Assembly (NCBI GenBank): GCA_947463915.1
Contig: CANHVO010000001.1
Span: 37,359 to 101,358 of the forward strand
Length of the DNA: 64,000 nucleotides
Direction of reading: 5' to 3'
DNA from: Planctomycetaceae bacterium
GTDB taxonomy: Bacteria > Planctomycetota > Planctomycetia > Pirellulales > Pirellulaceae
The first letter of the stretch is position 1. The number at the start of each line of letters is the position of its first letter. The translations under genes were made by a program, and so were the position numbers. The notes under the pieces are model-generated. The model had not been told where the DNA came from. It did no database searches and saw only the letters and a program-made list of their open reading frames with translations. Positions 16,987 to 53,849 of the stretch are shown here, piece after piece.

Positions 16987-17118
16987 TCGTTACAGAAGTC
17001 TTCAGTGTTCCGATTTTGGAATATGCTGCCCCGACGCATGAGAATTGCATGTCTGTCCAAACTAAATCGAATCGATGCTGACTTTTCCGATTGAATCGCG
17101 AATGCGATGGAATCTTTT

Positions 17119-17348
17119 AGCCTGGGGTAATTCGCCACGCGAACGAAACCCCAGGTAGAACGCCCAAAAGGCTTCAGAGCTCTGAAGGAGCGCTATTGAC
17201 CATGAATCAATACCCAACCATTCGCAATGTTGATCATCGGGCCAACTAGATTTCTGAGGGAATGTCGTCGCTCTGCGACTCTCTATCAAACGTTCCATTC
17301 CTACCACGGATTTCATCCGTGGCTTTCAAATGCCACTGCTCCGCAGTT
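17119..17348. repeat. Multi-hairpin interspersed repeat, copy A
   Basis: A chain of small stems: CCTGGGGT...ACCCCAGG enclosing TTCGC-cac-GCGAA; GCTCTGAAGGAGC; GTCGCTCTGCGAC; CCACGGATTTCATCCGTGG; ACTGCTCCGCAGT. The same stems in the same order and at similar spacing recur at 47739-47995, while loops and spacers differ. Confidence 0.85.
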
Positions 17349-17544
17349 AAGGCTGTTGTATCTAGTACCCAGAACAAGACGTCCCTTTGAACGGCTGAAT
17401 TTTAAGCGAAACAGACAGCTTCAGAAGGAATGGAGGTCCAACTCGCCGCATTCTTTTGAATTTCTGACTAAAATGTTGTCGCAGTGGAATTCAGACAAGA
17501 TAACGACCTGTACGATTCATTTTGAATTTGCCCATGTGATTCAT

Positions 17545-17602
17545 TGAGCCTGAGGCGCTAGCCGAGCCACGCCAAAGGAAATCGGCTAGCGCCTCAGGCT
17601 CA
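17545..17602. repeat. REP-like palindrome, family 1, copy 2
   Basis: Perfect 21-bp arms (17545-17565 and 17582-17602), identical to the element at 7261-7318, around the loop GCCACGCCAAAGGAAA. That loop is close to the reverse complement of the first copy's loop, so this copy is inverted. It lies 64 bp upstream of giant gene 3. Confidence 0.93.
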
Positions 17603-17666
17603 GTAAGCATCCAACTTATTCCAATCCTACAGCTCACAAGATTTCAACCCAAAACGCCCAGTCAAA

Positions 17667-47705: not shown

Positions 47706-47738
47706 GAAGTCCGCGTCTGGGCAACATATTGCGATTTA

Positions 47739-47995
47739 GTCCTGAAGGGACGGCATTTGAAAGCCTGGGGTAAAGTTCGCGAAGCGAACGAAACCCCAGG
47801 TTACCTGCCTCCATCCGTTCCAAGCTCTGAAGGAGCGCCACTGGCATTATGTAATTCTCTCAGCCATAAGTCTGGTTGGCTATTGTTTGCCTCGCGCCAT
47901 ACGCTATAGTGCCGTCGCGTTGCGACTCCCGACACATTTTGTTTCACTAACCACGGATTGCATCCGTGGCTATCAAATGTCACTGCTCCGCAGTT
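47739..47995. repeat. Multi-hairpin interspersed repeat, copy B
   Basis: Same series of stems as 17119-17348: CCTGGGGT...ACCCCAGG enclosing GTTCGC-gaa-GCGAAC; GCTCTGAAGGAGC; GTCGCGTTGCGAC; CCACGGATTGCATCCGTGG; ACTGCTCCGCAGT. It is preceded by a further small hairpin, TCCTGAAGGGA. Differences from copy A fall mostly in loops and linkers. Confidence 0.85.
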
Positions 47996-48085
47996 CTGAA
48001 ACCAACGAAATTGGTCAACAAAATCTCGACAACGGGTGCTGCCAATCGCAGCCACCGCCCGGTCAAGGAGCTTTTTGATTTAGTT

Positions 48086-48150
48086 GTTTAACAGTCAGCC
48101 GAAGGCGTACTTGGCGGCTTTGACAGTACGCCTACGGCTGACTGTTAAAC
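48086..48150. repeat. 25-bp-arm palindrome between convergent genes
   Basis: Left arm 48086-48110 starts GTTTAACAGTCAGCCG and the right arm 48126-48150 ends CGGCTGACTGTTAAAC; there is one mismatch in 25 bp and a 15-nt loop. It could stop transcription from both sides, but there is no clear T-tract. Confidence 0.88.
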
Positions 48151-48188
48151 GAAATGCATTTGAAAAAGTATTAAATCAACAAGCCCCA

Positions 48189-48413
48189 AGCCGGACGGAA
48201 GGCATATGAACTCGATTTCCGAACTTCACTCCAGGCTTTCGAATTCCATCGAAATTGCGATTGAATCGTAGGAGGCTCCATCGATTCGCTTTGGCTTGGA
48301 GTGCCAAGCATTCGTTTCGTCTTGTTTTGGTGCATGTTCTTGAACAAATAGATGGAACGGAGTTAAACGGTTTTTGGCAGGGCAGCAACAATTGAGGACA
48401 ATTGTGCGACACT
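48189..48413. repeat. Interspersed repeat block, copy 1 (downstream of kinase-STAND 1)
   Basis: It begins AGCCGGACGGAAGGCATATG and ends with CAACAATTGAGGACAATTGT followed by GCGACAC. Both ends match 53730-53849 closely in the same orientation; this copy carries about 100 bp of extra sequence in the middle. The short ORFs over it (for example 48176-48412 minus) resemble the ORF over the second copy only because the DNA is repeated. Confidence 0.82.
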
Positions 48414-53472: not shown

Positions 53473-53705
53473 CTACCGGCCAAGGGCCTAGCAATTCAAA
53501 TAGCCAGGGCCATCGGCCCTGGTAATTCGGCAACAACGACGTTAGAGTCCCAACGGGCCAGCCGTTCGACATTGTTTTCGATGCCCTCGAACGCTCCGCC
53601 CGTTGGGCCTTTTTCATGCTTGTGTTGGATGATTTTCCAGGACCGATGGCCGTGGCTATTGGAACGGATGGCCCATTGGGCCGTAACACTTTTGAAACGT
53701 GTCGT
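53473..53705. repeat. Second type of multi-hairpin intergenic repeat
   Basis: Contains GGCC-aag-GGCC, a perfect 8-bp stem CCAGGGCC-atc-GGCCCTGG (53504-53522), a long-loop stem CCCAACGGGC/GCCCGTTGGG (53549-53607) followed by CCTTTTT, and further GGCC-rich stems near 53640-53690. The T-run after the third stem could act as a plus-strand terminator, but the loop is about 40 nt. Confidence 0.65.
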
Positions 53706-53729
53706 TGGATAGGTCGGGCCGCCCTGGCG

Positions 53730-53849
53730 AGCCGGACGGAAGGCACATGAACTCGATTTCCGAACTTCACCGCAGTCCGAAGAAAGAGATGGACCGGAAG
53801 TAACGGTTTTTCGCGGCGCGGCAACAATTGAGGACAATTGTGCGACACT
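53730..53849. repeat. Interspersed repeat block, copy 2 (upstream of FGE gene)
   Basis: It begins AGCCGGACGGAAGGCACATG and ends CAACAATTGAGGACAATTGT then GCGACAC, in the same orientation as 48189-48413 but without about 100 bp of its middle. The two copies flank the kinase-STAND 1 gene as direct repeats. Confidence 0.82.

Follow-up and report, generated by a model that had tools for sequence, protein, structure and literature searches.

The repeat that occurs twice in the window, by which we mean the whole analysed stretch of 64,000 nucleotides of Planctomycetaceae DNA, is in our reading (with a probability of roughly 85%) a non-autonomous mobile element, i.e. a REPIN-like MITE, which would be transposed by a Y1 (HUH) single-strand transposase of TnpA_Y1 subclass 1.2. 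A first-pass annotation of the sequence had proposed either a mobile structured element or a transcribed RNA, and it is the former that the data bear out: copies are dispersed with unrelated flanks, an autonomous version has these ends on either side of a transposase gene, and the repeat and the enzyme occur together in the same genomes.

Two copies of the repeat in the window

Both copies were found where they had been annotated, with stems common to both and in the same order, but the true unit is slightly longer than the 17119-17348 and 47739-47995 given earlier, extending over 17087-17350 (copy A) and 47730-47996 (copy B), in both cases as a complete non-autonomous element on the plus strand. 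Copy A consists of a left end (17087-17198, plus strand), a linker of about 60 nt and a right end (17259-17350, plus strand), the two ends being delimited by matches to the left-end and right-end profiles. Its left end holds three hairpins, in the order A reversed, B forward and A reversed. The first, A1 (17095-17108, minus strand), is ATCGC-GAAT-GCGAT, which precedes the first stem of the earlier listing and had been missed there. Hairpin B (17120-17156, plus strand) is GCCTGGGGT..ACCCCAGGT with TTTTA before it, and the TTCGC-CAC-GCGAA stem listed earlier is the inner portion of this longer hairpin. Hairpin A2 (17179-17191, minus strand) has the sequence GCTC(T)GAA(G)GAGC. The variable linker (17199-17258, to which no strand is assigned) takes the place that the transposase gene has in the autonomous version described below. 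The right end then presents A forward, B reversed and A forward, namely A1 (17267-17279, plus strand), GTCGC-TCT-GCGAC preceded by AATGTC where the family consensus is AATGCC; B (17304-17322, minus strand), CCACGGAT-TTC-ATCCGTGG; and A2 (17335-17347, plus strand), ACTGC-TCC-GCAGT preceded by AATGCC.

Copy B matches the same profiles at 47730-47843 and 47908-47996. Its left end contains hairpin A1 (47739-47751, minus strand), GTCC-TGAAG-GGAC, a variant stem with pairing kept, followed by B (47763-47801, plus strand) and A2 (47824-47836, minus strand), and its right end contains A1 (47914-47926, plus strand), GTCGC-GTT-GCGAC, B (47951-47969, minus strand), CCACGGAT-TGC-ATCCGTGG, and A2 (47982-47994, plus strand). 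A left-end fragment in the opposite orientation adjoins this copy (48214-48268, minus strand; a left-end match of 27.7 bits). Single-stranded folding was more favourable than that of dinucleotide shuffles, with z = -3.8 and -3.9 for the two strands of copy A and z = -3.6 for the plus strand of copy B.

Size, architecture and location of the dispersed family

The genome to which the window belongs (G000) is a draft of 7.6 Mb in 618 contigs. A sequence search of this genome gave 49 matches to the repeat, and the genome-wide covariance-model search that had been suggested earlier, run with models of the two ends, found about 59 left-end and about 59 right-end matches here, with 60 and 52, respectively, in a related genome (G023); some of these matches are partial, and the true number may exceed the count, as many copies lie at contig ends. 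When 19 full copies were aligned, they proved constant over about 115 nt at the left end and about 93 nt at the right end, with a variable linker of about 60 nt in between, and the flanks were unrelated among the copies of this approximately 260-bp family. Subfamilies share extra sequence just outside the profile limits, and the outer boundary differs between them.

Each copy has six hairpins, three per end, in the order A(-) B(+) A(-) at the left and A(+) B(-) A(+) at the right, so that the ends mirror each other, an order that was read from the hairpins together with their unpaired foot sequences. The A hairpins have stems of 4-5 bp and short loops with AATGCC at the 5' foot, and the B hairpins are longer with (A/T)TAG, i.e. 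TTAG or ATAG, before the stem; stems of the left and right ends differ in sequence, whereas their feet are alike. In plain alignment, homology of the left end to the reverse complement of the right end was unconvincing, with 5 of 500 shuffles reaching at least the same score and the matching stretch lying out of register. The arrangement of a REPIN-type unit was found, the B hairpins flanking a spacer in opposite orientations, forward on the left side and reversed on the right, and 51 paired left-right copies were located at the examined loci of the two genomes. The GTAG foot of a strict REP was not found in the family, the feet being AATGCC and (A/T)TAG.

With regard to gene context, 38 copies were classified, of which 22 are flanked by convergent genes, 11 by tandem genes and 5 by divergent genes (both genomes were counted, with shared loci entered twice, and genes were called by a simple open-reading-frame rule). 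The family is thus placed like REPs, which are found mainly downstream of genes (PMC3733652).

Some further arrangements were seen among these copies. At L057/L145 a left end comes immediately after a right end and has the same orientation, a tandem or circular-junction-like arrangement that is shared by both species. Inside the loop of the CCACGGAT-TTC-ATCCGTGG hairpin, many copies contain another small element, whose ends are inverted (TCATCTTTACCCACATCTT...) (L014:1733-2029; also L006, L011, L015, L022, L026, L027 and L028, and in G023 L139 and L143), where about 10 bases (GGATTTCATCC) are apparently duplicated, and it seems to target this hairpin. Finally, the window contains three neighbouring giant open frames of about 3,150-3,180 codons at 7522-36847 on the plus strand, and copy A and a related copy (G000:C1:33636, L002) each precede paralogous giant-frame genes, which suggests duplication of a gene together with its repeat.

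A Y1 transposase gene between the same ends

On another contig of the genome (C218) a left end at 107-220 and a right end at 791-882 enclose an intact Y1 (HUH) transposase frame on the minus strand, encoding a protein of 154 aa with its conserved part within 238-702, and a gene-less copy follows this transposase-bearing member at 951-1218. G023 has the same arrangement of ends plus transposase, with a protein 94% identical, and beyond it the element is repeated in a tandem array. Because the transposase sits between the same two ends in both genomes, the 260-bp copies look like gene-less derivatives; in the manner of MITEs, they contain no transposase gene and have their ends in common with the transposase-bearing element. 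Among 40 genomes compared, full left-end matches were found only in the two with this close transposase, and in two others with transposases 66% (G009) and 61% (G024) identical only part of the left end was matched, around hairpin B, with no left-end match in the remaining 36. The link between repeat and transposase, as based on shared ends and co-occurrence, is well supported. Judged from the transposase, a Planctomycetota MAG from Lake Pavin is the nearest relative, followed by a MAG labelled Pirellula staleyi.

The protein scored 86.7 bits against Y1_Tnp and 68.5 bits against the IS200 model NF033573 (cut-off 55), and only 22 bits against the RAYT model NF047646 (cut-off 80). Its HuH motif is DHVH (DH[IV]H in TnpA_Y1 subclass 1.2), its W motif is the WQ typical of that subclass (within FEWQRGYG) and its Y motif is YICDQKRHH (Y---Q--HH, or YxxxQxxHH, in the subclass), and it thereby has the motif signature of subclass 1.2. 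A single gene of this type is present in the genome, its other Y1 genes being paralogs of 42-50% identity, in agreement with the low copy number of that subclass.

The IS200 model score, together with ends that carry hairpins with unpaired feet, would also be expected if the family were a classical IS200/IS605 insertion sequence whose copies had decayed and whose hairpins were of the ordinary terminal type. We consider this very improbable, as one transposase copy stands against about 59 gene-less ends, the other Y1 genes here are 42-50% identical paralogs with hairpins of their own, each end has three hairpins in mirrored order, and the YxxxQxxHH motif is that of subclass 1.2 and not 1.1. Neither many near-identical full transposase copies nor a fixed 5' target tetranucleotide have been seen so far, and no constant flank or target tetranucleotide was apparent at the left end in the alignment of copies.

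For the non-autonomous element that we favour, a route of mobility can be proposed from what is known of IS200/IS605 and REP systems: the transposase would bind the hairpins on single-stranded DNA, with the unpaired foot sequences as guides, and would cut at the outer ends and thereby move the whole unit. No target duplication was found at element sites in the two species, using joined-flank and flank-only searches. When sites with and without the element were compared in relatives, as had been suggested earlier, loci lacking it were indeed seen, but none of these was a clean empty site, the intergenic DNA differing more widely.

Relation to known repeat systems

The system is best read as REPIN-like and of a known general kind, the new aspect being that a subclass 1.2 transposase is matched to its DNA partner. 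As in the REPIN/RAYT systems, where REP doublets are mobilised by TnpA_REP (PMC3116915, PMC3733652), the units are short, non-autonomous, palindromic, inverted and intergenic, with many per genome, a preference for the 3' side of genes and a single cognate Y1 transposase that has these repeats on both sides. Unlike those systems, however, the family has three hairpins of two kinds per end instead of one REP, feet of AATGCC and (A/T)TAG instead of GTAG, and a protein that falls outside the RAYT model (22 of 80 bits). Compared with subclass 1.2 as described by Quentin et al. 2018 (PMC6006769), the HuH, W and Y motifs, the length (154 aa versus a median of 148) and the low copy number with divergent paralogs all agree, whereas that description has no REP structures and mostly Cyanobacteria and Bacteroidetes, and we here find hairpin arrays and a dispersed family, in Planctomycetota and other phyla. 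TIRtrons/TIRYT (Di Nocera and colleagues 2013, PMC3733652) similarly have a Y1 gene between mirrored ends and sometimes dispersed copies of the ends, but in the present family the ends mirror each other in order and feet and not in overall sequence; most TIRYTs were placed in subclass 2.1 by Quentin et al. (PMC6006769). With IS200/IS605 the system has in common a Y1 HUH transposase and subterminal hairpins with unpaired feet, and it differs in its single transposase copy, many gene-less copies and three hairpins per end, with no target tetranucleotide established. The Escherichia coli BIMEs, composed of Y and Z REPs, likewise have two hairpin types in alternating orientation, but with other hairpin sequences, feet and transposase subclass, and the order here is fixed as A-B-A / A-B-A.

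Conservation of stems within the family and at fixed loci

Differences between the two copies in the window had been noted to fall preferentially in loops and linkers, and this holds genome-wide. Among 38 left-end copies, non-consensus bases made up 1.6% of stem positions, 13.2% of hairpin loops and 20.2% of other unpaired positions, the corresponding figures for 24 right-end copies being 0.8%, 12.0% and 23.3%. Selection on structure, as proposed in the first-pass annotation, was borne out insofar as stems are kept over loops, but it is mainly the sequence of the stems that is conserved, and compensatory changes are few. They were seen in 3 of 25 left-end pairs and in no right-end pair; taking the copies of both genomes together, 16 left-end cells were doubly changed, and two pairs of hairpin A1 account for most of these, with one such variant in copy B. 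As compensatory changes are this rare within the family, stem sequence and not merely pairing appears to be conserved. Covariation within the family was dropped as a main argument because the stems hardly vary. Stem sequence is thus what the family preserves, and a comparison of different families shows entire stems exchanged for others that still pair.

The much stronger conservation of stems than of loops, which extends to fixed loci (see below), could in principle mark a transcribed structured or cis-regulatory RNA that has spread over the genome and is conserved for its fold, and since convergent genes flank 22 of 38 copies and divergent genes only 5, most copies are probably transcribed. 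We nonetheless regard the RNA reading, one of the two in the first-pass annotation, as improbable and do not retain it: the whole window gave no match over the gathering score in Rfam 15, compensatory changes are few, and the same ends bracket a transposase gene. Departures from the stem consensus moreover had no consistent strand preference, the ratio of G.U to A.C being 21:14 at the left end, 2:11 at the right end and 23:25 overall.

A number of insertions are shared by G000 and G023 at the same loci, which allowed comparison of 11 left-end and 12 right-end orthologous pairs. Stems differed at 10 of 540 (left) and 4 of 389 (right) positions, compared with 64 of 567 and 64 of 521 for unpaired bases and 8 of 104 and 10 of 99 for hairpin loops (72 of 671 and 74 of 620 for these two classes together), and the aligned flanks differed at 212 of 2198 positions. 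The difference between stems and unpaired bases had P = 1e-10 (left) and 2e-12 (right), values to be taken as a guide, since sites within a copy are not fully independent; hand-picked pairs with well-aligned flanks gave 10 of 542 versus 57 of 754 (P = 1.6e-6). There were no compensatory double changes in the 23 ortholog end comparisons. At a given locus, unpaired bases and flanks thus change about 5-10 times faster than stems, and because ortholog stems differ by 1-2%, unpaired bases and flanks by about 10%, and double changes are absent, stem sequence appears constrained in place. Selection on the stems in place is supported by this comparison, through which it can be addressed directly whether REP-like repeats are mere parasites or are kept as useful. 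The ortholog copies were found by likeness to the family, with a flank-only check covering a handful of loci; the latter search yielded few loci, at which the other species had either no element or only a short remnant of it, and revealed no full-length copy with decayed stems. An ortholog of copy B was not found in G023.

The same retention of perfect arms with diverging loops would be produced if stem conservation were a mutational by-product of quasipalindrome correction, the arms templating each other with no selection in place, an explanation that rivals constraint in place and not the mobile element as such. We find it hardly credible. Correction should often convert both arms, and two-way correction is not supported because it would have left double changes, of which the 23 ortholog end comparisons had none; existing stem departures are also mostly uncorrected. 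Returning to constraint in place, intergenic copies, mostly downstream of genes, may, with less certainty than the proposed route of mobility, keep their stems since the hairpins would be useful where they are. Candidate uses include formation or protection of mRNA 3' ends and binding of the transposase or another protein.

Hairpin arrays beside related transposase genes

Quentin et al. 2018 (PMC6006769) gave the motifs of TnpA_Y1 subclass 1.2 with 'no' under REP structures, and in the literature the subclass is listed without REP or IS hairpins. Hairpin arrays were here found beside most such genes tested. The Y1 genes at C212 (twice), C367 and C100 of the present genome, and those of G009 and G024, adjoin arrays of similar design but different stem sequences; the C212 paralogs have closely similar inverted ends, and the exact GTAG foot occurs in the array of the C100 paralog. 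At 33 loci of this genome and its relatives, 183 hairpins were counted near the gene versus 29.7 in shuffles, and at 21 loci from several phyla, including Acidobacteria, Verrucomicrobia, Armatimonadetes, Lentisphaerae and Bacteroidota, 141 versus 23.2. Next to the gene, the latter loci had 8.45 hairpins per kb, and at a distance of 1.2-2 kb they had 1.89 per kb, this far control being mostly coding, whereby intergenic sequence in general may explain part of the enrichment, and the array signal was weak at some loci (e.g. Larkinella and Phycisphaerales). An inverted match between left and right flanks was present at 14 of these 21 loci, compared with 6 of 124 mismatched pairs. Among hairpin feet, TGCC was the commonest beside the genes (13), and far away it did not rank among the common feet.

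A subclass that was described without a DNA partner can hereby be paired, for one of its proteins, with a defined and testable substrate, and arrays like those of the 260-bp family also lie beside its relatives in several phyla. Subclass 1.2 Y1 transposases could possibly represent REPIN-like systems of a widespread class that has so far escaped recognition, with three hairpins per end in mirrored order and with dispersed gene-less copies that are kept in place by selection on stem sequence with the hairpins serving the host cell, a generalisation that we offer as tentative.

Other hairpin sequences in the window

The hairpin cluster at 53473-53705, earlier called related but distinct, is indeed similar in design, but its sequence matches no copy of the 260-bp family. 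Its membership of that family was rejected, its own genome-wide matches being five fragments of 43-54 bases; it is probably the repeat of another transposase, possibly C100-like. A strong palindrome, GAGCCTGAGGCGCTAGCCGA...TCGGCTAGCGCCTCAGGCTC, lies at 17548-17603, just after copy A. Another hairpin family is represented at 48061-48192 by the palindromic repeat TTTAACAGTCAGCCG..AGGCGTAC...GTACGCCTACGGCTGACTGTTAAA, to which G023 has many dispersed matches and G024, G002 and G009 have some. The stretch GCCGGACGGAAGGCA(T/C)ATGAACTCGATTTCCGAACTTCAC, finally, is present at both 48190-48230 and 53729-53770, the first of which overlaps the left-end fragment adjoining copy B.
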